The translations under genes were made by a program, and so were the position numbers. Shown piece after piece: positions 5,356-19,114 of a stretch of 30,295 bases of DNA (position 1 is the first letter of the stretch; the number at the start of each line of letters is the position of its first letter). This DNA comes from Roseovarius mucosus (GTDB lineage: Bacteria; Pseudomonadota; Alphaproteobacteria; Rhodobacterales; Rhodobacteraceae). Location: positions 1-30,295 of the forward strand of contig NZ_CP020476.1 of the NCBI RefSeq assembly GCF_002080415.1, written 5' to 3'. The notes below the pieces were generated by a model that did not search any database, had not been told where the DNA came from, and saw only the letters and a list, made by a program, of their open reading frames with translations.

Positions 5356-5356
5356 C

Positions 5357-6125: not shown

Positions 6126-6135
6126 TGCAGACGGC

Positions 6136-6438
6136 TCAGGAGGCTGCGTCAGGCAGCACTTGCGCCGGATAGCCATTGGCCGTCACCGCGCCGATGATGC
6201 TTTCGATGGAAGTCTCGGCGTCATCGTAGGTCACGCTGTAAACACCCTGTCCGTATTCGGGGCCGTCCTGGAACGCAGCAATCTCGACCGAAGGAACACC
6301 GCGCATCGAACTGGCAACAATGAACGAACAGGACGGGCATGTCAGTTCGCTGACGGCGATCTCGACCTGGCGCTCTTCAGCGAGGGCCGGGGTCGAGAGT
6401 GCGGCGATGGTCAGGGCGTATAAAAGGAGATGCTTCAT
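6136..6438 (-). CDS. merP: Periplasmic mercury-binding protein MerP
   Basis: A 100-residue periplasmic protein with a clear signal peptide (MKHLLLYALTIAALSTPALA, cleavage after residue 20) and one heavy-metal-associated domain. The metal motif is LTCPSC (Cys34, Cys37), and the beta-alpha-beta pattern ends with the typical SIIGAVTANGYPAQV. It binds Hg(II) in the periplasm and passes it to the membrane carriers. An ATG at 6444 also exists, but GAGG lies only three bases before it; from 6438 the spacing is nine, so 6438 is preferred. It follows merT by 15 bases in the leftward operon. Confidence 0.93.
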   Translation of the reverse strand: MKHLLLYALTIAALSTPALAEERQVEIAVSELTCPSCSFIVASSMRGVPSVEIAAFQDGPEYGQGVYSVTYDDAETSIESIIGAVTANGYPAQVLPDAAS

Positions 6439-6453
6439 GGTCATGGTCCTCGT

Positions 6454-6861
6454 TCAGAATTTCAGGATGATGGGGGTGATGTAGGGAAAGATCATAGCAA
6501 CAGCGACAATCGCGGACGCGGCCCAGAGGGTTGCGCGCATGATGCGGCGGTCGATGGGGCGGGCGCAGGTGCCATCGGCACAGGACTCGGCATTTACAGG
6601 CTTGTAAGCCTTGTAGAAGCCGTATCCCAAGAACGCGGCGCTCAGCGCGAAGGTGTACCACTTGTAGGCATAGAGCGCCCCGAGCTGCGCGATGAACACG
6701 CCTGTTACGCCAAAGCTGACCAGCACCAATGGAAGGATGCAGCACGAGGTCATCGCCAGCGCACCGAGGACGCCGAGGCCGGTCACGCCCCATCCCTTGG
6801 TGGTTTCGTCGCCAATTTTCTGCGACCGAGATTGCGGAAGTTCCGCCAAATTTTGTTCCAT
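6454..6861 (-). CDS. merT: Mercuric transport protein MerT
   Basis: A 135-residue inner-membrane protein with three hydrophobic segments. The first carries the vicinal pair Cys40-Cys41 (MTSCCILPLVLVSFG), and the cytosolic loop before the third carries Cys94 and Cys99 (SCADGTC), the cysteine layout of MerT proteins. It takes Hg(II) from MerP and delivers it inside. The open frame extends upstream to 7011, but that part overlaps merR and the operator. The start at 6861 has AAGGAAG five bases ahead. First gene of the leftward operon, transcribed from the promoter at 6891-6921. Confidence 0.94.
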   Translation of the reverse strand: MEQNLAELPQSRSQKIGDETTKGWGVTGLGVLGALAMTSCCILPLVLVSFGVTGVFIAQLGALYAYKWYTFALSAAFLGYGFYKAYKPVNAESCADGTCARPIDRRIMRATLWAASAIVAVAMIFPYITPIILKF

Positions 6862-6890
6862 CGAATCTTCCTTGAACAGATATTTCCACC

Positions 6891-6921
6891 GTTCTAGGGT
6901 CTGTAGTTGATACAGGATCAA
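6891..6921 (-). promoter_or_regulatory. mer operator/promoter (MerR-type, 19-bp spacer)
   Basis: On the minus strand a -35 TTGATC (6916-6921) and a -10 TAGAAC (6891-6896) are separated by 19 bp, the over-long spacing that defines MerR-controlled promoters. Within the spacer is the perfect dyad CTGTA-N5-TACAG (6901-6915), the expected MerR site. It lies between divergent merT and merR and should serve both. Confidence 0.88.
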
Positions 6922-6937
6922 GGGATTTTTTGGCACA

Positions 6938-7351
6938 ATGAGTAACACAAGCGTGAGATCTATTCGGCGGAGCGATTTGGCCCGCGCAACGGGCTGCAAC
7001 CTGGAAACCATTCGCTACTACGAGAAAATCGGGATCATGCCGGACCCGCCGCGCAGTGTGAAAGGCTATCGCAGCTACGATGATACCCACGTCAAGCGGC
7101 TGAAATTCGTCATGCGGTCCCGCGATCTAGGCTTTTCTCTTGAAGAGGTTCGCGGGCTGCTTGGGCTGGTCGATGACCGATGCCGGACATGCGCCGAGGT
7201 GCAGATGATCGCCGAAGATCATCTGACAGACGTTCGAGCCAAGATCGCCGACCTGAAGCGGATCGAGCGCGTTTTGTCGGACACCGTTGCACGATGCACT
7301 GGTGATGCCGCGCCGGAATGCGCGGTGATCGACGCGCTACTCGATGCTTAA
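6938..7351 (+). CDS. merR: Hg(II)-responsive transcriptional regulator MerR
   Basis: A 137-residue MerR protein: winged-helix domain at 8-75 (ATGCNLETIRYYEKIGIM, GYRSYDDTHVKRLKFVMRSR), a dimerisation helix, and cysteines at 82, 85, 120 and 128. Cys82 and the C-terminal pair correspond to the three Hg(II) ligands of known MerR proteins (82, 117, 126 in Tn501). It represses and, when bound to Hg(II), activates the leftward mer operon by twisting the over-spaced promoter. It reads divergently from merT. An AAGGGA precedes the ATG at a rather long distance, so the ribosome site is weak. No other gene follows in its direction. Confidence 0.95.
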   Translation: MSNTSVRSIRRSDLARATGCNLETIRYYEKIGIMPDPPRSVKGYRSYDDTHVKRLKFVMRSRDLGFSLEEVRGLLGLVDDRCRTCAEVQMIAEDHLTDVRAKIADLKRIERVLSDTVARCTGDAAPECAVIDALLDA

Positions 7352-7646
7352 GAAATCTGAGCGGTTGTGTTCGCGTTCGAAGGGCAAAAACGGTGGATTT
7401 AGCCAGTGACATAAACGTCTGAGTTCGGTCCAGATGTGGCGAAAAGCAGACCTTAGTCTCCATCTGACCATCCGGCAGCTTTGCGGACATTCCGGACATT
7501 CAGCCAGTGAACGCGATGAAGAGATTGCGCTGCGGATCGAACAGCGCAACATTTCCGCTGTGATCAAATGAGTTCATCGGGCTCGCCGCCTCAAGGTATT
7601 CCCAAAGGCTATGAGAGCCGGTCACCTTGCGGATCTTGAACCATAT
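7352..7646. other. Non-coding decay region after merR
   Basis: No gene is supported. The part at 7500-7646 continues the minus-strand frame of the IS3 remnant but has no recognisable domain (LWEYLEAASPMNSFDHSGNV), so it looks like unrelated DNA joined at a recombination point. A short tandem GACATTC repeat lies near 7485-7500. Confidence 0.4.
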
Positions 7647-7815
7647 CGTCGTTCTATGCGGCTTGCCACGGATGATGCCTTGAATTCCCATGTCTTTCAT
7701 CAGCCTTGCCACAGTGCAACGCGCGACATCGAAGTCCTCCCGGACGAGCTGCCGCCAGACCTTGCGGATGCCATAGACCCGCCAGTTCTCCTCGAACACA
7801 CGTCGGACCTCGGGC
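7647..7815 (-). pseudogene. IS3-family transposase (OrfB) fragment
   Basis: On the minus strand this segment reads VRRVFEENWRVYGIRKVWRQ and then DVARCTVARLMKDMGIQG up to GKPHRTT, which is the HTH-to-linker part of IS3-family OrfB. The DDE catalytic core that should follow is missing: after HRTT the frame runs into unrelated sequence. The N-terminal OrfA part is also absent. It is therefore a dead fragment of about 55 codons, marking the junction between the mer module and the metabolic island. No terminal inverted repeats could be identified. Confidence 0.8.
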
Positions 7816-7932
7816 CCCAGGGAGAGGGGCAGCTCAACCTCAGCGCCGCCATTGAGCCTGAACAAGAAATTAAAACGCACCCGCAGCTAAGGGTAGCGCA
7901 GGTGCGTTTATTAGAAAATTATAGTCTCAGCC

Positions 7933-9096
7933 TCAGTAGGCCTTCCCGCGCGCGGAAACCGGCCACAGGGTCTCTACCTTGCCGTTGCGGACGCCGACAT
8001 ACCAGTCGTGGACGTTGCAGGTCGGATCGCAATGGCCCGGCACCAGACGCAGCTTGTCGTTGACCTCGAGAACGGCGTTGTCGTCCTGGACCACTCCGTG
8101 CTCGTCGCTGCACTTGATGTATTTTACATCGTCGCGGCCATAGACGAGTGGCAGCCCGCTATCGACCGACTGCGCCTTCAAGCCCGCGTCCACTACCGCA
8201 AGATGCGGCTTGGCGTGGGACATGACGGAGGTCAGGATGAACAGCGCGTTTTCCCATTCGCCCTGGTCGATGCGCTTGCCGTCCTTGTCGTGGATGCGGC
8301 CATAATCCGCGTCCATGAAGGCGTAGGAGCCGCACTGGAGTTCGTTGTAAACGCCCGAGTTGCTTTCGAAGTAATAGCTGCCGGTGCCGCCGCCCGAGAC
8401 CAGTTCCGGTTCCAGCCCCTCGGCCTTCAGCGCCTCGACGGCATCGGTCACTTGGGCAATGGCGGCGTCTAGCTTGGCCTTTCGGTCCTGGTAGCTGTCC
8501 ATGTGCTGCATGGCGCCTTGATAGGCCTGGATGCCGGTGAACTTTAGCCCTGGCGCCGCGTCGATGGCCTTGGCGATCTCCAAGACCGCATCAGAGGTCT
8601 TCACGCCGCAGCGGCCCGCGCCACAATCGATCTCCACGAAGCATTCCAGCGTGGTGCCGTGCTTCTGCGCGGCAGCCGACAGGTCGGCCACGTTCGCCAC
8701 GTCGTCCACGCAGACGATGATCCTGCTGCCCAGCTTCGGCAGGCGGGCCAGGCGGTCGATCTTCTGCGGGTCGCGCACCTGGTTGGAGACGAGCACATCC
8801 TTGATCCCGCCGCGCACGAAGACCTCGGCCTCGGACACCTTCTGGCAGCAGACTCCGATCGCGCCGCCCAGTTCTTCCTGCAGCTTCAGCACATCGACCG
8901 ACTTGTGCATCTTGCCATGGGCGCGATGGCGCATCCCGTGCGCCTTGGCATAGTTGCCCATCTTCTTGATGTTGCGCTCCAGCGCATCCAGGTCGAGGAT
9001 CAGGCAGGGCGTCTGGATATCCTTCTCGTCCATGCCCGGCAGCGCGGGCACGTCGAAGCCGACTTCTAGGTTGTCGAAGTTCACGGGTGCGTTCAT
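7933..9096 (-). CDS. bhcC: beta-hydroxyaspartate aldolase (3-hydroxy-D-aspartate aldolase, BhcC-like)
   Basis: A 387-residue PLP enzyme of the D-threonine aldolase / alanine racemase fold (fold type III). The lysine expected to hold PLP is in RHRAHGKMHKS (Lys62); the glycine-rich phosphate loop is VSGGGTGSYYF; the C-terminal PGHCDPTCNVHDWYV holds the metal-binding residues of the family. In Paracoccus the close homologue joins glycine and glyoxylate to (2R,3S)-beta-hydroxyaspartate; the related D-3-hydroxyaspartate aldolase cleaves D-3-hydroxyaspartate. GAGGAGAG precedes the ATG. It is the last gene of a leftward group and starts 11 bases after the bhcB stop. In known beta-hydroxyaspartate-cycle clusters it sits with bhcA, bhcB, bhcD and bhcR; only bhcB is here. 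Confidence 0.9.
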   Translation of the reverse strand: MNAPVNFDNLEVGFDVPALPGMDEKDIQTPCLILDLDALERNIKKMGNYAKAHGMRHRAHGKMHKSVDVLKLQEELGGAIGVCCQKVSEAEVFVRGGIKDVLVSNQVRDPQKIDRLARLPKLGSRIIVCVDDVANVADLSAAAQKHGTTLECFVEIDCGAGRCGVKTSDAVLEIAKAIDAAPGLKFTGIQAYQGAMQHMDSYQDRKAKLDAAIAQVTDAVEALKAEGLEPELVSGGGTGSYYFESNSGVYNELQCGSYAFMDADYGRIHDKDGKRIDQGEWENALFILTSVMSHAKPHLAVVDAGLKAQSVDSGLPLVYGRDDVKYIKCSDEHGVVQDDNAVLEVNDKLRLVPGHCDPTCNVHDWYVGVRNGKVETLWPVSARGKAY

Positions 9097-9107
9097 AGTG
9101 TCTCTCC

Positions 9108-10055
9108 TCAGAGCCAGGGCAGCTTGTCGAGATCGACATTGCCGCCGGTGATGATGATGCCGACGCGCTTGCCGGCGAATGCGTCCTTGTTCTTCAGGAT
9201 GGTCGCCAGCGGCACGGCGCTGCTGGGCTCCATCACGACGCGCAGGTGCTTCCAGATCAGCTTCATCGCGTCGACGATCTCGGCGTCCGAAGTCGTGTAG
9301 ATCTCGGACACATGGTTGCTGACGAAGTGCCAGGTCAGGTCCTTCAGCGGCACCAGCAAACCGTCCGCGATGGTCTTGGGCGCATCATCCGCGATGATGT
9401 GGCCCGCCTTGAAGCTGCGATACGCGTCGTCGGCCTGCTCGGGCTCGGCGGCGATCACCTTGGTTTCCGGCGCCAGCGTCGAAAGCGTCAGGCAGGTGCC
9501 CGAGATCATCCCGCCGCCGCCGATCGGCGCGACCACCATGTCCAGCCCGCCGGTCTGCTCCATGAACTCCTTGGAACATGTGCCCTGCCCGGCGATCACG
9601 CGCGGATCGTTGTAGGGGTGGACGAAATCGCCGCCCGTTTGCGCCTGCACCTTGGCGAAGGTTTCCTCGCGCGAAGACGTGGACGGCTCGCATTCGGTGA
9701 TAACGCCTCCATAGCGGCGCACGGTGTCCTTCTTGGCCTGCGGTGCGGTGCGCGGCATGACCACGTTGCAGGGGATGCCTCGGCGCATCGCGGCATAGGA
9801 AAGGCAAGAGGCGTGGTTGCCCGATGAATGGGTCGCCACGCCTCTGGCCGCCTGCGCGTCGTCCAGGCCGAAGACCGCATTGGCGGCGCCGCGGACCTTG
9901 AAAGCCCCCGGCTCCTGGAAGTTCTCGCACTTGAAGAACAGCTGCGCGCCGGTCAGCTCGTTCAGATACTCCGAGACTCGCACCGGCGTGCGTCGGATAT
10001 AAGGCTGGATGCGCTTATGCGCGGCCAGCATGTCCCTATATTCTGGAATCAGCAT
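9108..10055 (-). CDS. bhcB: beta-hydroxyaspartate dehydratase (BhcB-like, fold type II PLP enzyme)
   Basis: A 315-residue serine/threonine dehydratase-family protein. Lys53 in PGAFKVRGAANA should form the PLP Schiff base; the SSGNHA loop binds the substrate carboxylate and the GGGGMISG loop binds the PLP phosphate. The length and lack of an ACT domain fit hydroxyaspartate dehydratase/serine racemase relatives. BhcB converts (2R,3S)-beta-hydroxyaspartate to iminosuccinate, which in the full cycle BhcD reduces to aspartate; spontaneous or catalysed hydrolysis would give oxaloacetate and ammonia. The start at 10055 has GGAG nine bases ahead and lies 6 bases after the ridA stop, so the genes are one operon. 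A general threonine dehydratase is an alternative, but pairing with bhcC favours this call. Confidence 0.85.
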   Translation of the reverse strand: MLIPEYRDMLAAHKRIQPYIRRTPVRVSEYLNELTGAQLFFKCENFQEPGAFKVRGAANAVFGLDDAQAARGVATHSSGNHASCLSYAAMRRGIPCNVVMPRTAPQAKKDTVRRYGGVITECEPSTSSREETFAKVQAQTGGDFVHPYNDPRVIAGQGTCSKEFMEQTGGLDMVVAPIGGGGMISGTCLTLSTLAPETKVIAAEPEQADDAYRSFKAGHIIADDAPKTIADGLLVPLKDLTWHFVSNHVSEIYTTSDAEIVDAMKLIWKHLRVVMEPSSAVPLATILKNKDAFAGKRVGIIITGGNVDLDKLPWL

Positions 10056-10061
10056 CTATAC

Positions 10062-10493
10062 TTACTCCGTTCGCTCAGGTTTTTCCTTGCTTCCGGATGG
10101 CGCGTGGGGATCGAGCGCGACAGCGTCCAGTTCGATCAGAAATCCATGGTGAAGTTCCGGCACGGGAACAACTGAGCGCGCCGGGCGCACGTCACCAAAG
10201 GCTTCAGCAAAAGCAGCGTTGAATATACCCCACTGCCCTACCCCGACGATGTAGGCTGTAACCTTCACCACGTCGCGGGAACCAGCGCCTGCTGCATCCA
10301 GAATAGACAGCAGATTACGCAAGACCAGGTGCGCCTGCTCTTCGAAGGGCAGGCTTGAAGCAATATTTTGATCGCCCGCCTTGATCGGAAGCTGGCCCGA
10401 AACGTGGATCAGGCCATCAGCTCTTACAGCATGGCTGTAATGTCCTAGAGGTTCAGGCGCGTTCTGCGTGAAAATGGACTCTATTTTGGTCAT
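10062..10493 (-). CDS. RidA family imine/enamine deaminase (copy 1)
   Basis: A 143-residue RidA (YjgF/YER057c/UK114) protein: PLGHYSHAVRADGLIHVSGQ at the N-terminus, LRNLLSILDAAGAGSRDVVKVTAYIV in the middle, and the PARSVVPVPEL block that carries the conserved arginine contacting the substrate carboxylate. RidA enzymes are trimers that hydrolyse reactive 2-imino acids released by PLP and flavin enzymes to 2-oxo acids. The ATG at 10493 has TGAGGACAATC ahead of it. It sits between the FAD oxidase and bhcB. The products of these two neighbours (an imino acid and iminosuccinate) are exactly the kind of substrate RidA acts on. The C-terminus has an unusual polar extension (HAPSGSKEKPERTE). Confidence 0.9.
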   Translation of the reverse strand: MTKIESIFTQNAPEPLGHYSHAVRADGLIHVSGQLPIKAGDQNIASSLPFEEQAHLVLRNLLSILDAAGAGSRDVVKVTAYIVGVGQWGIFNAAFAEAFGDVRPARSVVPVPELHHGFLIELDAVALDPHAPSGSKEKPERTE

Positions 10494-10540
10494 GATTGTC
10501 CTCAGGTGTTTCTGGTAGGGATCGTGGGCGAACTAGCCGC

Positions 10541-11866
10541 TCACACCGAGTTTTTGCTCGCGGGAGACTTCAGGAACTTGCTTCCCGAGCTCTTCTTCCC
10601 GGCCTTTGAAAAACGCGAAGGAGAGAATGGGGAGAGATCGATGGATGGTTTCATCCCGGAGATAAGCTCAGAGACGAGCATCGCCGTCATTGGCGCTCCG
10701 GTCATTCCCAAATGCCCGTGGCCAAATGCATAGACGACATTTGGCGTGCGACGCGCGTAACCGATGACTGGGAGTGAGTCCGGCACGCTCGGGCGATAAC
10801 CCATCCATTTCGTGTAGCGGTCCTCCGGCCTCACCGAGGCGATTGCGGGAAGAAGAGCACGGGCGTGATCGTAGAGAACATCAGCTCGCTTCCAGTTCGG
10901 TGCCGCGTCCAAGCCGGCGAACTCAACAGTCCCACCGATCCGGAGGCCCGTTTCCATCGGGGTCGCTATGAATTTTCCGACTGCGTCCGTGGTCGGAATG
11001 CGTGGCTGAACCTCTGGGTCGCGGATCACGATGTGATACCCCCGCTCGGTATCAAGCGGCACATTGTCTCCCAGCAAGGCGGCGAGTGGCTTTGAATGAG
11101 CGCCGGCCGCAATTACCGCTGCGTCAAGGTTTACTTTTCCGTTTTCCGTTTCGACGGCGCTCAGGATCTGTCCGTTGACTTCAAAGCCGGTCACACGGCT
11201 GGACACCAAAATGCCGCCATTGGCGATCACTTTCTTGAAGAGCAATGTGACCAGTTCGTGCGGGTTGGTGGTATGCCCGTTCTCTTTGATCAAGATGCCC
11301 TTGGTGAAAGCGCGGGACAGGTTGGGGTCAAAGTCCCGGAGTTCGTCTGCGTTGAGAATGTTTGAAGTCACACCATTGCTGCGACGCAGTTCCCAACCAC
11401 CCTGATCCTTCGCAAACTGCGCCTCTGTACGATACACATAGAGGTGGCCTTCGTGCCGAAGCAGATGCTCTGCACCAGCCTCTTTCGCCAAGGACGTAAT
11501 CAGAGGAACGGTGTTTCCGATCAAGCTGCGCAGAGCTCGCGCCTGCTCCTCGACCTTGGCCGGTTGCCCTGCAAGCAAGAACTGGACCAGCCAGGGTGTG
11601 ATTTTGTGAAAGTAGCCAAGGCGAATAGACAGCGGACCCATCGGGTCAAGGAGCCACTTCGGCACACTGGTAATCATTCCCGGCATAGACATGGGCACAA
11701 CGGAAGATCCGTTGAAACACCCGGCATTACCGAACGAGGCGCCTTCGCCTGCAGGGTTAGGGTCGATAATGGTAACCTTGAACCCTTGACGTTGAAGCGT
11801 CAGCGCGGTGCAAACGCCAACGATACCGGCACCAATGACCCCTACTGTCTTATCGTTTGAATTCAT
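10541..11866 (-). CDS. FAD-dependent amine/D-amino acid oxidoreductase (DadA-like)
   Basis: A 441-residue DAO-family flavoprotein. The N-terminal dinucleotide site is VGVIGAGIVGVCTAL; DPNPAGEGASFGNAG and a C-terminal YRPSVPDSLPVIGYA / YAFGHGHLGMT block are typical of the DadA (D-amino acid dehydrogenase) group. Such enzymes oxidise D-amino acids, glycine derivatives or N-substituted amino acids to imino or oxo acids and pass electrons to the respiratory chain. The start at 11866 has GGGGAGAG ahead; the longer frame to 11905 is rejected. It lies between two ridA genes, which should hydrolyse its imine product. The exact substrate cannot be read from the sequence; glycine, sarcosine, D-aspartate-like compounds or D-hydroxyaspartate are all possible. 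The tail is serine/lysine-rich. Confidence 0.85.
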   Translation of the reverse strand: MNSNDKTVGVIGAGIVGVCTALTLQRQGFKVTIIDPNPAGEGASFGNAGCFNGSSVVPMSMPGMITSVPKWLLDPMGPLSIRLGYFHKITPWLVQFLLAGQPAKVEEQARALRSLIGNTVPLITSLAKEAGAEHLLRHEGHLYVYRTEAQFAKDQGGWELRRSNGVTSNILNADELRDFDPNLSRAFTKGILIKENGHTTNPHELVTLLFKKVIANGGILVSSRVTGFEVNGQILSAVETENGKVNLDAAVIAAGAHSKPLAALLGDNVPLDTERGYHIVIRDPEVQPRIPTTDAVGKFIATPMETGLRIGGTVEFAGLDAAPNWKRADVLYDHARALLPAIASVRPEDRYTKWMGYRPSVPDSLPVIGYARRTPNVVYAFGHGHLGMTGAPMTAMLVSELISGMKPSIDLSPFSPSRFSKAGKKSSGSKFLKSPASKNSV

Positions 11867-11939
11867 AATACTCTCCCCATGGCGGGCGCGCACCGCGCCG
11901 CTCAACTGCCGTCTCAGTACTTTCGGGAATGTGCGGAGC

Positions 11940-12287
11940 CTATGCGGCCGCAGTCACCACGATTTCAATCAGGACATTCTGTCCCAGGTCGGACACGCCG
12001 ATTGTCGCGCGGCAGGGTAGATCTTCAGCCGGCAGCCAGGAGGTCCATACATCGTTCAATTCCGCCTTCTGGCTCATGTCCGTGATAAACACAGTCGCGG
12101 AAAGAAGCTTGCTTTTGTCACTTCCAGCGTCAGACAGTAGCTTCTCAATCTTTCCGCAGACCTCAGTTACCTGGGCCCGCATCGATGTGCCATTGACCTC
12201 GTCGGCAATCACGCCGCCCAGATAAACAACGCCACTGTGTTCAACGACCCGGTGCATGATCTTGGTCTTCTCGATGCGTTTAATCAT
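11940..12287 (-). CDS. RidA family protein (copy 2)
   Basis: A 115-residue RidA-fold protein beginning MIKRIEKTKIMHRVVEHSG, with VYLGGVIADE, the middle helix EKLLSDAGSDKSKLLSATVFI and the conserved CRATIGVSDL (substrate-contact arginine). It belongs to the RidA subgroup often found next to amine oxidases rather than the archetypal RidA. The start at 12287 is set by GAAAGGACAAACA upstream. The reading frame stays open upstream into the decayed oxidase remnant, so the frame runs to 12521, but the RidA domain starts cleanly at this ATG. Together with copy 1 it brackets the DadA-like gene. Confidence 0.88.
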   Translation of the reverse strand: MIKRIEKTKIMHRVVEHSGVVYLGGVIADEVNGTSMRAQVTEVCGKIEKLLSDAGSDKSKLLSATVFITDMSQKAELNDVWTSWLPAEDLPCRATIGVSDLGQNVLIEIVVTAAA

Positions 12288-12861
12288 TGTTTGTCCTTTC
12301 TTGGCTTGGGTACGAGAGCGTGCCTCGCGAGAAATCATTTGAGAGGGGGCTGCTTGGGATCCGGCGGCATCGTCCACAAGCCCGGCCAACTCACCCAAGG
12401 TCACCGGCTTGAAAGGAGGCCGGAAGCGGTAGTATCCGGTGACCTCTGGCTCCGACGAGTTGGCCGCGGACAGGAGGTCATTGACCGTCAAGCCGCAATA
12501 CCTGCCCTGACAAGGACCCATTCCGGCGCGGCCGAAAGCCTTCGTCTGGTTCGGCCCGAGGCATCCGAGACGTGCAAATCCAGGGATCGTGCCGGCGGTG
12601 ACCTATTCGCAGCAGCAGACTATGGTGTCGTCTGCGGGAGTCAGTTTTGCCTCCGCGGGCGAATAGGCGACGTCGAGAAAGGGTCGCGCTCGCAACTCGG
12701 CAGCCCTTGCCCTGCCCCCATACGAGGCCGAAGTTGCCGCGCGAATCCCGGAAATCAAGGGCACCTGCGTCAAGGACAATTACCCGATGCCGGTGGTGCG
12801 CGAGGCCCCAGGCAATCGACAAGCCGCCGCCGCCGCCGATGATTGTGAAATGGGCATCCAT
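12288..12861 (-). pseudogene. Fused remnants of a two-subunit FAD oxidase (OoxB-like start, OoxA-like end)
   Basis: Reading leftward, an ATG at 12861 starts MDAHFTIIGGGGGLSIAWGL and continues to about GNFGLVWGQGKG, the FAD-binding start of an opine/hydroxyproline oxidase beta-type subunit. After about 50 codons the sequence switches, in another frame, to the end of the alpha-type subunit: DVAYSPAEAKLTPADDTIVC, then CCE followed by a TAG where a conserved Glu codon is expected, then LGCLGPNQTKAFGRAGMGPC and GRYCG, the BFD-like [2Fe-2S] cysteine motif. The internal deletion, frame change and nonsense codon make it dead. An intact operon once included this oxidase between the TRAP genes and ridA. 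Confidence 0.8.
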
Positions 12862-12927
12862 GATCCTGGTCCAGTCAAACAGGGAGAAGAAGAGGGGGCG
12901 GTCGGGCACCGCCCCCGCTATTGGCCG

Positions 12928-13920
12928 CTACTTTGCGAGCTGATCGAGGATCGGCTGCGCGAAGTCTGCACCTATGTCGTTGACGACCTCGGGCCAGACC
13001 TTCTCACGGACCGAGGTGGCGAGAGCGGAAAGCTCCTCCGACGTCAACTCGTTGATAGTGGCGCCGGCCTGGGCAAGCCGCTGCTCGAAAGTTTTCTGCT
13101 CGGTCGGCGCTACTTCCCAGCGCTTCGCCACGAACTCTGCAGCCGCCGTCTCTAGGTTGGCACGGGCGGTGTCCTCGAGCCCTTCCAGCACACCGGTATT
13201 GATGAGCAGGTACCAGACCTCGAAATGCGTGTTGGCTGGGATATAGCTCTGAGTCACATCGCGGAAGGAGGCGTAGTACCCCTCCGCCCCTGCACCGAGC
13301 ACGCCGTCAACTACTCCGGTCTGGATGGCTGTGAAGGCCTCGGAAAACGGAATCGGCGTCGAGATGTATCCAATGGCCTCACCGAGCAGTTGGTAGCTTC
13401 TGATCGGCGGAACCCGGAGCTTGATGCCCTTCTTGGCGTCGGGATTCCCAGGCTCGATCGCATCGCGATTCAGGGCGATGCCCCCGAAATATACTGGGTA
13501 GGCGCCGAGAACGGTAATATCCTGCTCGGCGTAGAGCTTGGTCATCTCGGTGCTGATCGGGCCGCCGGGCCCGAAGGCCTTTTTGGCTGCCTCCCAATCT
13601 TCCACCAGGTACGGCATCACAGAGAGCTGCATTCTCCGATCCAAGCCCGTAGCAGGGGGCTGAAGCGCCATTTCGATGGCGCCAATCGAGACGCGTTCCT
13701 GAACCACCGTATAGTCGCCGAGGGCGCTGGCCGGATAAAGCTGGATCGTGGTTTCGCCTCCTGTCGTCTGCGCCACGGCCTCGGCAAACTCAGTAAGCTC
13801 CTGGTGAACGCTTGACGCCTGGGGGCGAATGTGACCTAGCTTGAGCTCTTCGGCCTTCGTCGCAGGTGCGAGAGTAAGTAGCGCAGCCAATGCAGCCGAG
13901 CCGAGAAGATAGTTTCTCAT
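12928..13920 (-). CDS. dctP: TRAP transporter substrate-binding protein (DctP family)
   Basis: A 330-residue periplasmic binding protein with a signal peptide (MRNYLLGSAALAALLTLAPA, cleavage near ATKA). The DctP fold is visible in LKLGHIRPQASSVHQELTEF, LYPASALGDYTVVQERVSIG, the helix-strand block with LRVPPIRSYQLLGEAIGYIS (the Arg that pairs with a substrate carboxylate) and the PFSEAFTAIQTGVVDGV motif. It captures an organic acid for the DctQM permease. AAGGAGG lies before the ATG at 13920. The ligand cannot be read off; the context suggests an amino-dicarboxylate or opine-like compound (inference). Confidence 0.92.
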   Translation of the reverse strand: MRNYLLGSAALAALLTLAPATKAEELKLGHIRPQASSVHQELTEFAEAVAQTTGGETTIQLYPASALGDYTVVQERVSIGAIEMALQPPATGLDRRMQLSVMPYLVEDWEAAKKAFGPGGPISTEMTKLYAEQDITVLGAYPVYFGGIALNRDAIEPGNPDAKKGIKLRVPPIRSYQLLGEAIGYISTPIPFSEAFTAIQTGVVDGVLGAGAEGYYASFRDVTQSYIPANTHFEVWYLLINTGVLEGLEDTARANLETAAAEFVAKRWEVAPTEQKTFEQRLAQAGATINELTSEELSALATSVREKVWPEVVNDIGADFAQPILDQLAK

Positions 13921-13951
13921 AGGGATTCCTCCTTGTTGCGGTTTTTCATGG

Positions 13952-15250
13952 TTAGTAGCCAAAGAAGCGGGGCAGAGAGAGGGAGAGGTCTGGCCAGAAG
14001 GCGGTCAGGAACACGACCGGCACGTATCCAAGTGCGAGGAAAAGCATGGCCGGCGGGATCACTTTCGTGACCTTAACGTTGCCAACGCGGGCGCCGAGAT
14101 AGAGGATCGACGCGTAGGGTGGGGTCACACCACCCATGGCAGTATTCACACCCATGATTGCCGCAAATTGAACCGGGCTTACCTCAATGGCGGACATCAG
14201 TGGCAGGAGCAGTGGCGCGAGCAGGATGATCGCGGTGATGTCATTCACAATCATGCCCACGAGGAAAAGTAGCAAGTTCACGAGGATCAGCAGCAGCAGC
14301 TTGTTCTCGGTGATTTCGAATATCCCTTCGACGAGGGCCTGCGGGACGCCTTCTACTACGAATATCTGGCTGAGGATCATTGAAAAGAGGATCATCACCA
14401 TGATCGTTCCGACCGAGGTTGCAGCTTCCCGGCCCGCCTCGAGGAAGTTGCTCCAGGTCAATCCGCGATAGATCAGGAAGCCGACCGGCACGGCGTAGAT
14501 CACGGCGACCGCAGCCGCTTCGGTCGGTGTCATGATCCCGCCGTAGATGCCGCCGAGGATGATCACTGGCATGAGCAAGGCGGGAAAGGCGTGGATGCCG
14601 CGGCGCGTAGCTTCTCCAGAAAACGCGGCCAGCGAGGGCTTTTCATCCAACACCAGCGGGAATTTGCGTGCCATCCACAGGTTGATCACACTGAAATTCA
14701 GGGTGATGAACAATCCAGGGCCGAGCGTAGCGAGAAAGCAGGCAAGTATCGACGTGTCGGTAACCCAGCCATAAACAATCATCGTGACGCTCGGCGGGAT
14801 CAGGAGCCCAAGGACCGAACTATTGGTAATGAGGGCAGTTGCGTATTCCCGCGGGTAGCCGCGGCGCTCCATCTCTGGGATCAGAAGCGGTCCGATCGCG
14901 GCCACACCCGTGAACCCAGAGCCGGAGATCGCGCCAATGACCGCGCAGCTCATGGTGGCTACTACACCTAGCCCGCCGCGGATGTGGCCGATAAAGACGT
15001 TTACGAAGCGCAGGAGGCTTGCCGCGATTCCGCTCGCGCTCATGATTGTGCCGGCGAGCACGAACAAGGGAATCGCGAGCAGAATTGGATTGCTCAATTG
15101 CTGCATACCCCAAAGGATGTTTCCCTTCATGGTAACGCCGCCAACTAGGCTCATCACCATGAGGGCAGCACCGAAGCACCAGGGCAGGGGAACGCCGAAG
15201 GTCAGCAAGACGACGAGCACTGCGATAGCAAGGAGTGCGATTTCAACCAT
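13952..15250 (-). CDS. dctM: TRAP transporter large permease (DctM family)
   Basis: A 432-residue, very hydrophobic protein with about 12 membrane segments, the large sodium-coupled subunit of a TRAP transporter. Family blocks are present: GVPLPWCFGAALMVMSL, IPLFVLAGTIMSASGIA, GAISGSGFTGVAAIGPLLIP, GLLIPPSVTMIVYGWVTD, and the second-half equivalents MIVNDITAIILLAPLLLP and NTAMGGVTPPYASILYLGAR. GGAGGAGAAG precedes the ATG at 15250. Its start overlaps the end of dctQ by 8 bases and its stop is 31 bases before dctP, so the three genes are co-transcribed. Confidence 0.94.
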   Translation of the reverse strand: MVEIALLAIAVLVVLLTFGVPLPWCFGAALMVMSLVGGVTMKGNILWGMQQLSNPILLAIPLFVLAGTIMSASGIAASLLRFVNVFIGHIRGGLGVVATMSCAVIGAISGSGFTGVAAIGPLLIPEMERRGYPREYATALITNSSVLGLLIPPSVTMIVYGWVTDTSILACFLATLGPGLFITLNFSVINLWMARKFPLVLDEKPSLAAFSGEATRRGIHAFPALLMPVIILGGIYGGIMTPTEAAAVAVIYAVPVGFLIYRGLTWSNFLEAGREAATSVGTIMVMILFSMILSQIFVVEGVPQALVEGIFEITENKLLLLILVNLLLFLVGMIVNDITAIILLAPLLLPLMSAIEVSPVQFAAIMGVNTAMGGVTPPYASILYLGARVGNVKVTKVIPPAMLFLALGYVPVVFLTAFWPDLSLSLPRFFGY

Positions 15251-15782
15251 GGAGCTTCTCCTCCGAGCTGTCGACCGCGATGGCTTGATAGTCGGCCTCG
15301 TGGGTGTCGAGCCCGCTGTAGTTCCCGGCTGCCAGCGCTCGGATGTTTCTGTAGAGGTGCCAGATCGTGTAGACAGCCATCAAGACGAGGGCGATCATCA
15401 GCGCGACGTCTGTATAAAATGTTGGAATGTAGAGGGTCGGGCTTTCCCGCCAGACCCGCAATGAGTAGCTGGTGTAATCCCAGGCCCACCAACTGAGCCA
15501 TGTGATCACCGTGAGGCTGAGCACTTCCCCGACGATTGCGAGTAGCGCGTGGCCCCGAGCGGTCTTGATGAAGATCTCGAGCACGTTCGCGCGGATCTGA
15601 GTATTCTCGCGCGAAGCGTTGACCGCTCCGAGCATGTAGAGCCAAATCGTCGGGTAGAGTATTGTTTCCTCGAGCCCCATCACCGGGACTTGGAGAATGT
15701 AGCGGGTGATGACCTGCACGAACTGGCCGAGGGCCACCAGGCCAATCAGGGTCGTGAGGCTTACTCGTATCAGTTGTTCCAT
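15243..15782 (-). CDS. dctQ: TRAP transporter small permease (DctQ family)
   Basis: A 179-residue membrane protein with four hydrophobic segments, the small subunit that bridges DctP and DctM. Typical features are TLIGLVALGQFVQVITRYIL in the first helix, the VMGLEETILYPTIWLYMLGA block and a conserved ENTQIRANVLE loop. An ATG at 15800 exists, but the GGAGG lies between the two ATGs and fits the one at 15782. First gene of the leftward operon; the 97 bases up to the divergent LysR gene must hold both promoters. Confidence 0.9.
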   Translation of the reverse strand: MEQLIRVSLTTLIGLVALGQFVQVITRYILQVPVMGLEETILYPTIWLYMLGAVNASRENTQIRANVLEIFIKTARGHALLAIVGEVLSLTVITWLSWWAWDYTSYSLRVWRESPTLYIPTFYTDVALMIALVLMAVYTIWHLYRNIRALAAGNYSGLDTHEADYQAIAVDSSEEKLHG

Positions 15783-15879
15783 CGGCTTCCTCCAGTACAT
15801 GCCCTCTTGTCAAAGCCAGTGCATAACGTCCAATTTGAAATATCTTGAAGTCCATAGATTCGCTTTATTGGAGGCGTTC
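15783..15879. promoter_or_regulatory. Divergent regulatory region between dctQ and the LysR gene
   Basis: A 97-base, relatively AT-rich spacer between divergent genes, the usual place for LysR-type operators. Two TTGAA direct repeats (around 15834 and 15844) flank an ATATC core. I could not assign a firm T-N11-A box or promoter elements. Confidence 0.5.
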
Positions 15880-16794
15880 GTGAACCTATCCTTCCGCCAG
15901 CTACAGACATTTCGCGAGGTGATGAGGGCAAACTCACTTTCTGAGGCTGCACGCTCCCTCGGCCGAACGCAGCCGGCAGTAAGCGCTATGATTGCGAGTC
16001 TCGAGTCTCAAATGGGTTTTCGGCTTTTCGAGCGGGATCGCGGTCGACTGGTCCCGCGACCCGAAGCTCATTATTTTTATGAGGAGGCCGATTATATTCT
16101 CGGTCGCCTTGCCCAGACGGCGCTGACCATGCGGCAGATCGGCAATTTCGAGGAAGGCCAGTTGCGTATCGTCTGCACGCCCGCGACCTCGATTTACTTC
16201 ATGCCCAAGGTCGTCGCGCAATTTGTTCGCGACCGGCCCCGCTTAAAAGTGTCGCTGATGACGCGCTCGTCGAAGGTTGTCGAGGAATCGGTGGCATCGC
16301 AGCAATACGACATCGGACTAGCCGAAGCGCCGATCACACCGCGCGGAACGCTCGACACCTGCGCCTTCGCCATGCCGTGTGCCTGCGCGCTGCCGGCAGG
16401 CAGCCCTCTAGCACAGAAAGAATTCATCAGCCCGCCGGATCTGGCGGGGCATCCGCTGGCCCTGCTCTTTTCCGAACATCGAACCTGCCGCGACATGCTG
16501 ACAGCTTTCGAGGAAGCCGGGGTGCTGCCGATACAACGTTTCGAGACGCTGACTTTCGCGGCGGGATTGCAATTGGTGGCGGAAGGTCTGTGCGTGTCGA
16601 TTTGTGATCCAGTGACCGCCGCGAGCTATCACGTGCTGAACGGTGCTAAAGTGGTATTCCGCCCGTTCCGACCCAAGATCGAGTTGCCTCTCGTGGTGCT
16701 GACACCTACCTACAGGCCACCTTCCCTTGTAGCCGAGGCATTCGGGAAAGAACTTAAAGGCGCGCTTTCTGACCTGATCAAGGACTGGCACTAA
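15880..16794 (+). CDS. LysR family transcriptional regulator
   Basis: A 304-residue LysR regulator. The winged helix-turn-helix is at 1-65 (LSFRQLQTFREVMRANSLSE, AARSLGRTQPAVSAMIASLE, GFRLFERDRGRLVPRPEA), followed by the linker helix and a periplasmic-binding-like effector domain (EGQLRIVCTPATSIYFMPKV, YDIGLAEAPI, VLTPTYRPPS). The GTG at 15880 is preceded by GGAGG with a 5-base gap and begins exactly where LysR proteins begin; the open frame upstream to 15706 overlaps dctQ and is not coding. It is divergent from the TRAP-oxidase-RidA-bhcBC genes and is the likely regulator of that whole block, with a pathway intermediate as effector (inference). Confidence 0.93.
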   Translation: MNLSFRQLQTFREVMRANSLSEAARSLGRTQPAVSAMIASLESQMGFRLFERDRGRLVPRPEAHYFYEEADYILGRLAQTALTMRQIGNFEEGQLRIVCTPATSIYFMPKVVAQFVRDRPRLKVSLMTRSSKVVEESVASQQYDIGLAEAPITPRGTLDTCAFAMPCACALPAGSPLAQKEFISPPDLAGHPLALLFSEHRTCRDMLTAFEEAGVLPIQRFETLTFAAGLQLVAEGLCVSICDPVTAASYHVLNGAKVVFRPFRPKIELPLVVLTPTYRPPSLVAEAFGKELKGALSDLIKDWH

Positions 16795-17051: not shown

Positions 17052-17975
17052 TTATGCGTTCCAGACCGGTCGTGTACGCCAATCAGTTGGGAAACCCATT
17101 TTTGCGCGGTCGGAATCTGATTGTGCTTCGATCAGACTCCGCAGCCGATCTCGCCAAGTGCTGTCCGTCGCCTGCTTGTCCATCATGTGAAGCAGAACGA
17201 CCAATATGTTGTAGAGCCGATTGTCGTTCTCTTCTTGCTCGCCCTCGGTCACCAGTACCAAGTCATTCTTGAAACGCTTGATCTTGGGCAGTCGTTTGAC
17301 CGTCCTACGGTTCCACAGCCGTCCGTGATGTGCGCAGATGTTTCTGGTCAACGCCAACACTTGTAGAGTGCCCTCTACGATCTCTTTGGTTGGCAAGCCC
17401 AGATCACGTCCCACCCGCGACTTGATTGAATTGTCCTTTGTTGCCTGGAACCACTTCGAGAGCTCGCCAAGCGTCATCAATTCGGTTGCTGACCAAAGGG
17501 GCGGGGAATAGGGGTCCGTGTACTTGCCTTTGTGGTGCAAAATGAAGGTTTCTTCGGATTTTTCCACGGCCCGAGCGAGACGGACGAGCTGTTCGGCATG
17601 GTTCAAAAAGCCAGAGAACAGGCGGTGATCCAGATGGGCATGGGCACCGTGAGCATGTGCCATATGGTAGGTCCAGCGCGATCTCACATGCACTTCAACA
17701 CGTTCGATTGCTTCCAGTACCAGGACGCGCAACCTTCGGTCGAAGACATACAGATCGGTTACTGCGCTGAGAGTTGCGCCGCTTTCGAAGACCTTGCTGC
17801 GCGCGTTTCCGTTTGCTGGAGGTTTTTCGAAGGGGAGCCAGTAGGCGCTCAGCCTGTAGTATCCGACGGTCTCAAGCCACTTCTTTGCAGTGTCATGATC
17901 GCCGACATCCATACCACGCTGGATGAGGAGCTGTAGTTGTTGCTCGATGCTTGAAGGCGTCTTCGTGAACTTCAA
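17052..17975 (-). CDS. Abi family (Abi_2, AbiD/AbiF-like) abortive infection protein
   Basis: A member of the Abi_2 family, HEPN-related proteins known from abortive phage infection. The family start TPSSIEQQLQLLIQRGMDV is followed by LETVGYYRLSAYWLPFE, VFDRRLRVLVLEAIERVEVH and, near residue 211, the HEPN RNase signature RNICAHHGRLWNRR (R-N-x3-H). Expected role: toxic RNA cleavage or translation arrest on phage infection. The frame is open to 18146, but no ATG gives a sensible start before the family domain. I place the start at a TTG (17975), giving 307 residues, because the upstream bases form a hairpin-like leader (CCCCCC near 18004 pairing with GGGGGG near 18045). An ATG at 18113 is the alternative. 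Single gene. Confidence 0.8.
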   Translation of the reverse strand: MKFTKTPSSIEQQLQLLIQRGMDVGDHDTAKKWLETVGYYRLSAYWLPFEKPPANGNARSKVFESGATLSAVTDLYVFDRRLRVLVLEAIERVEVHVRSRWTYHMAHAHGAHAHLDHRLFSGFLNHAEQLVRLARAVEKSEETFILHHKGKYTDPYSPPLWSATELMTLGELSKWFQATKDNSIKSRVGRDLGLPTKEIVEGTLQVLALTRNICAHHGRLWNRRTVKRLPKIKRFKNDLVLVTEGEQEENDNRLYNILVVLLHMMDKQATDSTWRDRLRSLIEAQSDSDRAKMGFPTDWRTRPVWNA

Positions 17976-18331
17976 AGTATTGAGCAGACCCCTAAAAATA
18001 AGTAACCCCCCGGTATTGAGCTCGGCCTCTCGACCGGTCGCCTGGGGGGTGTTGTTGAGAGAGAGATATGTGCTGTTCGGATGAATGTCAACGTATCTGT
18101 ACCCAACGGCCATTTGCGAACAGTAGTGCAAGGGCGCTCTCCGCATGGCCCATCCTGTCCGTTCGTGACCTCGTGCAGTAGCTCGAGGTCACGAACGGAC
18201 AGGACCGCGCCCTAGTCTCCGGCCGGCTGCACCGGCCTTCGACCCGAGCCTGTCCTCCTCGCCCTCCCTGCGGCCCGAGTGCGCCGTGTCCGGTCTCTCC
18301 GAGCCCGCCCGCGGCGCGGCCGCATGGTCGT
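17976..18331. other. Structured region upstream of the abi gene
   Basis: About 350 bases without a confident gene. It holds the leader-like C6/G6 inverted repeat (about 18004-18050), a very long perfect hairpin (18153-18204, listed separately) and a GC-rich stretch (18205-18330) with small repeats such as CCGGCCGGC...CCGGCC. Confidence 0.5.
18153..18204. repeat. Perfect 21-bp inverted repeat with 10-base loop
   Basis: Arms 18153-18173 and 18184-18204 are exact reverse complements (core GTTCGTGACCTCG / CGAGGTCACGAAC); the loop is TGCAGTAGCT. No T-run follows on either side, so it is not a typical intrinsic terminator, although it lies downstream of the leftward lipoprotein gene. It could also be a protein-binding, recombination or single-strand origin structure. 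Confidence 0.85.
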
Positions 18332-18658
18332 TCAAGAAGGCAAGTCTCGGCCCATACGGGTAACGGTCTTGTTATTCCAGCATTCGTCTGCACTGCCAAG
18401 CGCGCGTATCTCAATCGCCGTCTCATGAACGCGCTCAGTCAGAGGATTGATGCTCCAAGGCTCGAAGTTTTGTGCTAATTCAGGAGGTCCGGCGGCAGGG
18501 GGAGCGCGATAGATTTCCACCACGCATGTAAAGACCTGCGTTTCACTCGCGACAACAGTGAGGCTTTCTACGCTTCCATCAGCTACAAAATGATCAGCGA
18601 TGTTCTCATCCAAGCAGCCGGATAGCAGGAAGATTGCAGTTAGCGGCCAAAATTTCAT
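18332..18658 (-). CDS. Small lipoprotein (108 aa class)
   Basis: Begins MKFWPLTAIFLLSGCLDENI: a short basic start, a hydrophobic stretch and the lipobox LSGC, with Cys15 as the lipid-modified residue, so it should be a membrane-anchored lipoprotein. The mature part has two more cysteines (in VFTCVVEIYRAPP and SADECWNNKT) that may form a disulfide. I recognise no family. The ATG at 18658 overlaps the stop of the upstream membrane-protein gene (ATGA), so they form a coupled pair. The longer frame to 18769 overlaps that gene and is rejected. Plasmid lipoproteins often act in surface or entry exclusion; here that is only a guess. Confidence 0.7.
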   Translation of the reverse strand: MKFWPLTAIFLLSGCLDENIADHFVADGSVESLTVVASETQVFTCVVEIYRAPPAAGPPELAQNFEPWSINPLTERVHETAIEIRALGSADECWNNKTVTRMGRDLPS

Positions 18659-18885
18659 GTGGCTCCGGCCAGCATGAATATGGCCAATCCGATCAACATT
18701 ACTACCATGTTGCAGGCCGCGATTGCGAGGAGTCTGCCGTTTCTTCCTCGGAAGAGTCCGGACATCCACTCAGCATCATAACCTCGCGGCATCGAACCCA
18801 TCCCTTGTATGAGAGCCAACGCAATTATTACATGCAATGCGCACGATCCAAGAAAGACGATAAGGGCTATTTTCGAGAGCATCAT
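18655..18885 (-). CDS. Small membrane protein, 76 aa
   Basis: Two hydrophobic segments (MLSKIALIVFLGSCALHVII and LAIAACNMVVMLIGLAIFML) joined by a polar, positively charged loop (PRGYDAEWMSGLFRGRNGR). No family recognised. Two adjacent ATGs occur at 18885 and 18882; neither has a strong ribosome site. Its stop overlaps the start of the lipoprotein gene. It is probably the first gene of a two-gene operon for a cell-envelope function. Confidence 0.65.
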   Translation of the reverse strand: MMLSKIALIVFLGSCALHVIIALALIQGMGSMPRGYDAEWMSGLFRGRNGRLLAIAACNMVVMLIGLAIFMLAGAT

Positions 18886-19105: not shown

Positions 19106-19114
19106 CAGTGAGGC

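Follow-up and report, generated by a model that had tools for sequence, protein, structure and literature searches.

The gene cluster at positions 7933-16794 of the window (the whole stretch of DNA that was analyzed, a complete contig of 30,295 bp) may be a catabolic operon, carried on a plasmid, in which the carbon-joining half of the beta-hydroxyaspartate cycle (BHAC) runs as a linear route fed by an iminodiacetate-like substrate, a reading that we place just short of an even call. What was observed comprises the gene families and their order, their conservation, the genes present in the host genomes, and links drawn from phylogeny and genomic context. By its sizes, the plasmid was taken as pSMR3-2 of Roseovarius mucosus SMR3, reported to be circular; it is small and mobile, and its host is a diatom-associated marine bacterium. 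An 8.9-kb part of the window was identical on two other plasmids, which together span the whole window. The genes named in the original prediction (bhcC, bhcB, two RidA genes, an FAD enzyme, a TRAP transporter, and a divergent LysR gene) were all found in place:

7933..9096, minus strand: bhcC, 3-hydroxy-D-aspartate aldolase, 387 aa (NF045642, 780 bits; cut-off, 690)
9108..10055, minus strand: bhcB, beta-hydroxyaspartate dehydratase, 315 aa (NF045641, 583 bits; cut-off, 550)
10062..10493, minus strand: RidA1, Rid-family protein with a proposed iminosuccinate role (PF01042, 102 bits)
10541..11866, minus strand: dao, FAD-dependent amine dehydrogenase/oxidase of the glyphosate-oxidoreductase (Gox)/DadA type, 441 aa (PF01266, 222 bits)
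about 11940..12287, minus strand: RidA2, Rid-family protein adjoining dao (PF01042, 71 bits on the longer reading 11940-12521)
12290..12862, minus strand: decayed FAD amine dehydrogenase remains, comprising the start of a beta-type DAO subunit and the end of an alpha-type subunit with SO_alpha_A3
12891..12919, minus strand: terminator-like hairpin directly downstream of dctP (12-nt arms, 92% complementary; 5-nt loop)
12928..13920, minus strand: dctP, TRAP solute-binding protein (PF03480, 136 bits)
13952..15250, minus strand: dctM, TRAP large permease (PF06808, 293 bits; TIGR00786, 313 bits, above the cut-off)
15243..15782, minus strand: dctQ, TRAP small permease (PF04290, 65 bits on the reading 15243-15800)
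15880..16794, plus strand: divergent LysR-type regulator (PF03466, 114 bits; PF00126, 65 bits)

The starts of dao, dctP, dctQ, and the LysR gene were taken from the annotation of the identical plasmids, the last being a GTG at 15880 preceded by GGAGG. For RidA2, the ATG at 12287 with AGGA before it was chosen; the plasmid annotation starts further upstream.

The best solved relative of BhcC was 6qkb, a 'D-3-hydroxyaspartate aldolase' matched over its full length (759 bits), and the plasmid protein shares 83% identity with the chromosomal BhcC. BhcB is 92% identical to a Leisingera BhcB, 91% to a Paracoccus BHAC enzyme, and 75% to the chromosomal copy. The chromosome carries a full bhcR-bhcABCD set (C1:2316169-2321645), with BhcR, BhcA, BhcB, BhcC, and BhcD each above the NCBIfam cut-off, so that the plasmid genes are not the sole beta-hydroxyaspartate system of the cell. 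The predicted lack of bhcA, bhcD, and bhcR on the plasmid itself was borne out: the chromosomal BhcA, BhcD, and BhcR gave zero tblastn matches on the two plasmids that have identical copies of the cluster, none of the three genes is annotated there, and BhcD had no match on contig C3 (the plasmid), the absence of BhcA being read from the tblastn search and annotation of those two plasmids. The regulator of the plasmid cluster is of the LysR type, and the IclR-type BhcR is chromosomal. With the full cycle on the chromosome, BhcD and BhcA could be provided in trans.

The substrate and direction of the proposed route, the roles of the RidA proteins, and regulation by the LysR protein are inferred. 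The TRAP transporter (DctPQM) would take up a small amino compound of acidic character, for which iminodiacetate or a closely related N-(carboxymethyl) amino acid is the most likely candidate. The FAD enzyme would then oxidize one N-CH2 bond of this compound, and hydrolysis of the imine, aided by RidA2, would give equal amounts of glycine and glyoxylate (1:1). BhcC would join these into (2R,3S)-beta-hydroxyaspartate, BhcB would dehydrate the product to iminosuccinate, and RidA1 would convert the latter to oxaloacetate and ammonia, or chromosomal BhcD would carry it to aspartate. As this oxidation would provide the two BhcC substrates in equal amounts, the route could do without the aminotransferase BhcA, and all carbon would be retained (C4 in, C4 out). 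The conversion of iminodiacetate to glycine and glyoxylate by an oxidase is known chemistry (PMC7312458). The enzymes are of known kinds; as a stand-alone route, this combination appears to be undescribed.

Six loci have an FAD gene with 73-95% identity to dao, and all six keep the order ridA-dao-ridA-bhcB-bhcC; in the other 60 of the 66 loci of the same scan, where the FAD gene is 30-47% identical and the flanks vary in length, bhcB and bhcC were not found. Among the six, L021, L022, and L023 barely differ from one another and were therefore counted as one lineage; the conserved units include Phyllobacteriaceae and Paracoccaceae, and the order is not a matter of chance. None of the six contains bhcA, which supports the linear use of BhcC and BhcB foreseen in the original prediction, fed by an FAD enzyme making glyoxylate from glycine or a substituted glycine. 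A bhcD gene is added in four of the six loci (in L026, both bhcD and dao are frame-interrupted as assembled); with both RidA genes present alongside bhcD in these four, RidA does not simply stand in place of BhcD. In the host genomes G390, G391, G394, and G395, the sole BhcB above the cut-off was, by coordinates, the unit's own. The best BhcA-like proteins of G391 and G394 reached 263 and 42 bits (cut-off, 650), and no BhcD exceeded 122 bits in G390 (cut-off, 500). As two hosts thus lack a convincing BhcA and one lacks BhcD, the unit need not depend on the BHAC. The BhcB proteins of the window and L019 have an origin separate from those of the other units (AU p, 5e-93), and the same test was marginal for BhcC (AU p, 0.047), both tests having been run after the trees had been seen. 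Either bhcBC became linked to the FAD/RidA genes on two or more occasions or it was replaced in place; bhcB of the conserved units derives from two BHAC lineages.

The RidA1 gene lies between dao and bhcB, and the RidA2 gene upstream of dao, in 6/6 relatives. Both proteins belong to the RidA family by their PF01042 domain and an Arg conserved in 9/9 aligned rows, which we take to occupy its place in the Rid motif; RidA1 scored 99.8 bits on TIGR00004, slightly below the cut-off of 106.25, and has both the Arg of the PxR motif and the Glu of the IE motif. Rid4-7 proteins are without this Arg (PMC9714295). A literature search for RidA with iminoaspartate or iminosuccinate returned, judging by titles, no paper on that activity; that Rid proteins act on iminosuccinate or a secondary imine is a hypothesis.

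For dao, the evidence leans toward an acidic, iminodiacetate-like substrate. Its likeness to the Gox/DadA family was judged by motifs and not against a Gox reference sequence: M1-M7 were exact (7/8), M8 had an L-to-M change, and the proline-rich motif was unmatched, the M1-M8 set (PMC12452685) spanning 2220 diverse sequences and not being substrate-specific. The sister of dao (support, 99/94) lies with a RidA on Aminobacter pAA02, flanked by bhcABCD on one side and an ABC-transporter/flavin-reductase/GntR/monooxygenase stretch on the other; the monooxygenase scored 560 bits on TIGR03860 (NtaA/DmoA family), and this Aminobacter strain is reported to degrade nitrilotriacetate (NTA) and iminodiacetate (PMC5146447). 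Within the clade surrounding dao, an LLM-type monooxygenase occurred in 9/13 non-bhc loci, compared with 0/59 loci outside the clade. The LLM protein of Chelativorans is 53% identical to the Aminobacter monooxygenase, and the one LLM protein of the clade that was scanned (L087) matched other LLM models below the cut-off; most LLM proteins of the clade are only putatively of the NtaA type. Neither an LLM monooxygenase nor a matching flavin reductase was found in the seven bhc-linked dao loci tested (including two plasmids identical to the window and one short contig), and, among six host genomes, only Chelativorans contained a close relative of the Aminobacter enzyme; most hosts therefore seem not to make iminodiacetate from NTA in this way. 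The relation of dao to 6pxs, listed as 'FAD dependent oxidoreductase' and presumably the iminodiacetate oxidase IdaA, was remote and not close (E, 2.5e-6; 29.8 bits).

The best NCBIfam model for dao, PRK00711 (227 bits, below the cut-off of 383), is of the DadA type and would also suit a scheme that we consider unlikely, the uptake of D-acidic amino acids, which takes in the hydroxyaspartate alternative of the original prediction. In this scheme, BhcB turns D-3-hydroxyaspartate into iminosuccinate and BhcC splits it into glycine and glyoxylate, dao oxidizes D-aspartate, likewise to iminosuccinate, and RidA1 or BhcD removes the iminosuccinate. This scheme accounts for the co-occurrence of RidA and BhcD and agrees with the importers of four relatives, since the ABC systems of L019 (with the same bhcBC as the window) and L021-L023 have a binding protein similar to those of Glu/Asp importers, with scores below the cut-off. 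In the window, TRAP stands in for this ABC importer, which also counts toward the iminodiacetate reading. The D-acid scheme agrees, too, with the L020 carbamoylase-like hydrolase, whose best likeness is to N-carbamoylputrescine hydrolase and whose next is to N-carbamoyl-D-amino-acid hydrolases. However, hydroxyaspartate would need BhcB or BhcC alone, and both the link of the dao clade to LLM monooxygenases and the Aminobacter dao position beside bhcABCD and nta-like genes are left unexplained.

The imported amine of the original prediction was narrowed by most of this context toward an acidic, iminodiacetate-like compound, whereas L020 and L026, with a hydantoinase-like enzyme, a carbamoylase-like CN hydrolase, and no acidic-amino-acid importer, lean toward glycine or another amino acid. 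As these enzymes would yield glycine from plain hydantoin, dao could be a glycine oxidase/dehydrogenase, with RidA2 converting iminoacetate to glyoxylate and a second glycine entering via BhcC, so that one oxaloacetate or aspartate, along with ammonia, would be formed from two glycines. RidA suits a primary imine, dao matches ThiO (125 bits; cut-off, 251), and its best solved relatives are glycine oxidases (E, 3e-24). We nevertheless regard this route as quite unlikely: neither the Glu/Asp-like importer of the four relatives (three nearly identical) nor the TRAP system of the window is, to our knowledge, usual for glycine, and the sister of dao lies beside bhcABCD in an NTA/iminodiacetate degrader.

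The TRAP/LysR half of the cluster derives from another amine-dehydrogenase operon. The same LysR and dctQ-dctM-dctP order was found in 20/20 fetched Rhodobacterales loci of the LysR/TRAP/soxBA-like amine dehydrogenase/RidA type, whose DctM is 76-82% identical to that of the window, and DctP had matches at 53-60% identity in 34 other genomes (of 390 Rhodobacterales). In those loci the dehydrogenase genes follow dctP, whereas in the window only their remains do so, followed by ridA2-dao-ridA1-bhcBC; the alpha piece was matched downstream of dctP in 20/20 of these loci and the beta piece in 9/20, and SO_alpha_A3 in the long RidA2 reading was below the cut-off (E, 5e-4). The hairpin sits between dctP and ridA2 and is followed by a T/C-rich run. 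Although these remains, the hairpin, the full chromosomal BHAC in the same cell, and the identical copies on other plasmids (which may mean recent plasmid spread and not selection) would fit an auxiliary or opportunistic set, either extra bhcB/bhcC dosage for the chromosomal cycle, carried along with amine-oxidation genes that have no bearing on it, or a hitchhiker in partial decay that encodes no coherent pathway, this is very unlikely given the unit order kept in six other loci (three nearly identical) that include both families, the units in genomes without BhcA or BhcD, the two BHAC lineages behind unit bhcB, and the open reading frames of the module in the window.

Stated most fully, the iminodiacetate reading would describe a complete, mobile, carbon-conserving pathway from iminodiacetate (an aspartate isomer) to oxaloacetate, with a new Gox-family iminodiacetate dehydrogenase, two dedicated Rid proteins, and BhcC/BhcB as a linear, BHAC-independent 're-bonding' module that arose more than once, from distinct BHAC lineages; this we regard as possible, if somewhat doubtful. 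If true, the beta-hydroxyaspartate enzymes would be a portable C2+C2 joining unit outside the BHAC, with stoichiometry set by the input enzyme, and RidA would be a pathway enzyme and not only a repair enzyme. A substrate class would be assigned to part of the Gox/DadA family, some NTA degraders would gain a candidate gene for the iminodiacetate oxidation step, and a mobile plasmid would let marine roseobacters use chelator-type or opine-like nitrogen compounds.

Among known systems, NTA/EDTA degradation (ntaAB/emoAB, IdaA) touches the present one through the dao relatives near NtaA-like genes in Aminobacter and Chelativorans, but the bhc-linked loci lack an ntaA/emoA-like gene, and dao is of the Gox/DadA type, far from 6pxs. 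Compared with the BHAC (bhcRABCD) of Paracoccus denitrificans and marine Proteobacteria, the plasmid BhcB and BhcC exceed the equivalog cut-offs and are expected to catalyze the same reactions, whereas the cluster lacks BhcA, BhcD, and BhcR, adds RidA, the FAD enzyme, its own importer, and LysR, and would be linear and not cyclic. The older, linear scheme of Kornberg and Morris (1963/65), the first beta-hydroxyaspartate pathway, reportedly led from hydroxyaspartate to oxaloacetate and ammonia. Its end reaction is essentially that proposed here, iminosuccinate to oxaloacetate and ammonia, to which the plasmid route would add a Rid protein dedicated to this step, together with an FAD enzyme supplying both C2 units.

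The gene families of the cluster were verified by Pfam and NCBIfam profiles, which bore out those named in the original prediction: BhcC, BhcB, two RidA-family proteins, a DAO-family FAD enzyme (dao), a three-part TRAP transporter, and a LysR regulator, all at correctly placed coordinates. The plasmid BhcC and BhcB exceeded their NCBIfam equivalog cut-offs, and the Arg and Glu common to 9/9 aligned Rid rows were retained in both RidA1 and RidA2. The annotation of identical plasmids places the probable start of the FAD gene at 11866 and that of the LysR gene at 15880, while the second RidA gene (ridA2) likely begins at 12287, judging from the sequence. A terminator-like hairpin directly after dctP suggests that the genes downstream of it may be transcribed separately; a search for inverted repeats in the gap between dctQ and lysR returned none.

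A standard bhcR-bhcABCD locus with 5/5 proteins above their cut-offs was found on the chromosome (4,170,996 bp of a 4,381,426-bp genome that also includes contig C2 of 180,135 bp), and thus the plasmid set is a second use of BhcB and BhcC in a cell already having the beta-hydroxyaspartate cycle (BHAC). The plasmid and chromosomal copies share 83% identity in BhcC and 75% in BhcB. A recent origin of the plasmid genes as copies of this chromosomal pair was rejected, as the plasmid BhcB is far closer to that of Leisingera (92%) and the third-position GC content (GC3) is 0.86 in both plasmid genes versus 0.72 and 0.70 in the chromosomal pair. The cluster resides on contig C3 (30,295 bp), of which the window is the entirety, and its 8.9 kb are matched at 100.0% in a plasmid of Yoonia (Loktanella) vestfoldensis SMR4r and in pP75_g of Phaeobacter gallaeciensis P75. 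Most of the window is matched by pP75_g at 94-99%, and both plasmids were typed in PLSDB as conjugative with a MOBQ relaxase. Mercury-resistance genes adjoin the cluster (window 2559-7880; MerA at 508 bits, above cut-off, and a MerT relative under cut-off), with an IS3-transposase-like fragment at 7500-7880 directly downstream of bhcC. The region 17052-28930, judged by its match to pSMR4r-2, encodes an Abi protein, a PIN-domain protein, ParA/ParG, RepA, and a coupling protein, together with a BglII/BstYI-type restriction endonuclease and an MT-A70 methyltransferase; its restriction genes are unlike those of pP75_g.

Scanning the contigs of genomes with the FAD protein yielded 66 loci. The FAD gene was 73-95% identical in six of these, and all six kept the order ridA-dao-ridA-bhcB-bhcC (the unit); neither bhcB nor bhcC was found in the remaining 60. 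In each of the six loci bhcA was missing, whereas bhcD came next in four, so that the idea in the original prediction of RidA standing in for BhcD was rejected as a rule. Three of the loci (L021, L022, and L023) are almost identical to one another, so that the six represent four separate lineages in addition to that of the window. In the L026 assembly, the reading frames of dao and bhcD are both interrupted. The unit in L019, a contig deposited under Spirulina subsalsa FACHB-351, shows 94-96% identity, and this contig probably comes from an associated roseobacter. About 20 relatives of the FAD enzyme were listed at 65-76% identity, some of them loci already covered here. Within the genomes searched, the FAD gene proved rare: with up to four candidates scored per genome, a match at E <=1e-120 was present in 1/390 Rhodobacterales genomes (its own) and one at E <=1e-115 in 11/397 genomes of the order of Chelativorans, where only Chelativorans itself surpassed 70% identity.

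In the inventory of host genomes, which bears on INDEPENDENCE from the cycle, BhcB was above cut-off in 7/7 genomes and BhcD in 4/7, own genome counted. BhcA exceeded its cut-off of 650 bits in two of the six hosts (G392 and G393), the best scores elsewhere being 586 (G390, near enough to allow for a divergent BhcA), 367 (G395), 263 (G391), and 42 (G394). For BhcD, G394 held two pieces only, the best score in G390 was 122 bits, and the profile search found none in G395, a doubtful assembly filed under a cyanobacterium that looks mixed and whose missing BhcD was not counted as evidence. On these scores, the unit occurs in two genomes, as assembled, that lack a convincing BhcA (G391 and G394) and in one that lacks BhcD (G390).

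Our phylogenetic analysis pointed to a hybrid cluster. The BhcB proteins of the window and L019 sit within a clade of Rhodobacterales-type BHAC sequences, and those of the other units group with the BHAC sequences of Aminobacter and Chelativorans. Constraining all units together was rejected for BhcB (AU p 5e-93) and gave p 0.047 for BhcC, both tests having been run after the trees had been seen. The GC3 of ridA1, dao, and ridA2 is 0.56-0.66, below the 0.86 of bhcB and bhcC. The bhcBC pair was either joined to the FAD/RidA genes twice or replaced in place, and either course suggests that selection favoured the combination. The TRAP/LysR half of the cluster is from another source. A DctP match occurred in 35/390 Rhodobacterales genomes, own genome counted, and 20 of the 34 others were fetched (the best 19 by score and the weakest one). 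LysR and dctQ-dctM-dctP in the window's order, followed by a match to alpha-subunit remains, recurred in 20/20 of these loci; between dctP and the alpha remains, 14/20 had a match to beta-type remains or DAO, as in the window, and a RidA match came afterwards in 16/20. The dehydrogenase subunits in three scanned TRAP loci matched ThiO- and SoxA-type models, under cut-off. Matches in these orthologous loci show that the 640 bp separating dctP from ridA2 in the window retain the beginning of one of these subunits and the end of the second:

12290-12862, between dctP and ridA2: remnants of a soxBA-like, multi-subunit FAD amine dehydrogenase, with related genes located after dctP in 20/20 fetched Rhodobacterales loci

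The solved relatives of dao are distant glycine and sarcosine oxidases, and its identification as the iminodiacetate oxidase IdaA, which we take 6pxs to be, was rejected because the similarity to 6pxs is remote. Seven of the eight glyphosate-oxidoreductase family motifs given in PMC12452685 are exact in dao. In an 80-row FAD tree, which left out L026 (frame-interrupted, failing the 330-residue limit), L091-L114, and window duplicates, the window and bhc-linked rows formed a clade of 8 (100/99), sister (99/94) to the FAD enzyme of the Aminobacter aminovorans plasmid pAA02. In pAA02 this FAD gene and a RidA gene are flanked on one side by bhcDCBA and on the other by an ABC transporter and a flavin reductase. 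Beyond these come IS elements and then a GntR regulator, with an NtaA/DmoA-family monooxygenase some 12 kb away. The last two probably belong to the published nta cluster of the strain, which is reported to degrade nitrilotriacetate and iminodiacetate (PMC5146447). Among the non-bhc loci of the enclosing dao clade, an LLM-type monooxygenase was present in 9/13 and a flavin reductase as well in 8/13, compared with 0/59 and 4/59 outside the clade and neither in the 7 bhc-linked loci; these counts omit L026, as it had been dropped from the tree, and are not independent events because the loci vary in length and relatedness. The good NtaA relatives among the LLM proteins are those of Aminobacter and Chelativorans. 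Genomes of the order of Chelativorans carry recurrent clusters of a Gox-type FAD gene, an LLM monooxygenase, and a flavin reductase (L116, L120-L124, L086, and L087), some with ABC importer, D-arabinono-lactone-oxidase-like, and aldehyde dehydrogenase genes.

BhcA converts glyoxylate to glycine. Since iminodiacetate oxidation gives glycine and glyoxylate (PMC7312458), and so supplies BhcC with its substrates at a 1:1 ratio, an iminodiacetate-like substrate would leave BhcA no task; nitrilotriacetate in Aminobacter, where bhcA is present, would yield one extra glyoxylate. Glyoxylate can arise from EDTA and NTA breakdown, as PMC11323563 states. The importer binding proteins of L019, L021, L022, and L023 are closest to the Glu/Asp model PRK10797, below its cut-off of 375 bits (L019, 288; L022, 292; L021 and L023 by near-identity), and among solved structures the top match is 2ia4/2vha (256 bits), presumably a Glu/Asp-binding protein. 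The bhcBC genes of L019 are 95-96% identical to the window's, yet L019 has an ABC importer, indicating that TRAP replaces the ABC importer in the window.

Two findings stand against iminodiacetate: in L020 and L026 the importer position is taken by a hydantoinase-like enzyme and a carbamoylase-like hydrolase, and among the six host genomes only that of Chelativorans encodes a protein closely related to the Aminobacter monooxygenase. The alternative front end of L020 and L026 (L020:15102-20057; L026:16717-21144) comprises the hydantoinase-like enzyme, an SsuA-type ABC importer, and the carbamoylase-like CN hydrolase, next to a LysR gene of the same type. Iminodiacetate dehydrogenase as a named enzyme was not found in our literature search. 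The ancestral TRAP locus might also have passed on an opine- or hydroxyproline-like substrate; its dehydrogenase is of another, multi-subunit kind. Separately, half of the eight fetched plasmid BHAC clusters (L134, L136, L140, and L141) have purine/ureide neighbours (allantoicase, purine permease, and 8-oxoguanine deaminase), suggesting that purine-derived glyoxylate may feed the BHAC there.

With an iminodiacetate-like compound, the favoured substrate, the route would proceed by import, FAD-dependent oxidation, imine hydrolysis, aldol joining, and dehydration, after which iminosuccinate would be hydrolysed or reduced. The DadY/DadA pair is a precedent for a partnership of a Rid protein with an FAD dehydrogenase (PMC9714295), and the Rid proteins here may act on iminosuccinate or a secondary imine; our literature search turned up no title on RidA acting on iminosuccinate. 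No description of the gene set was found among the listed titles and abstract starts, a weak result given that subscription papers are mostly outside this coverage. The linear route first proposed was the right kind of idea; what refines it is that the chromosome has a BHAC, that relatives carry RidA together with BhcD, that the substrate is probably of the iminodiacetate type, and that the cluster is of hybrid origin. What is new is the combination of enzymes, not the enzyme folds. The proposed end reaction, giving oxaloacetate and ammonia, closely resembles the earlier scheme of Kornberg and Morris for hydroxyaspartate, which was reportedly linear and ended in the same two products.
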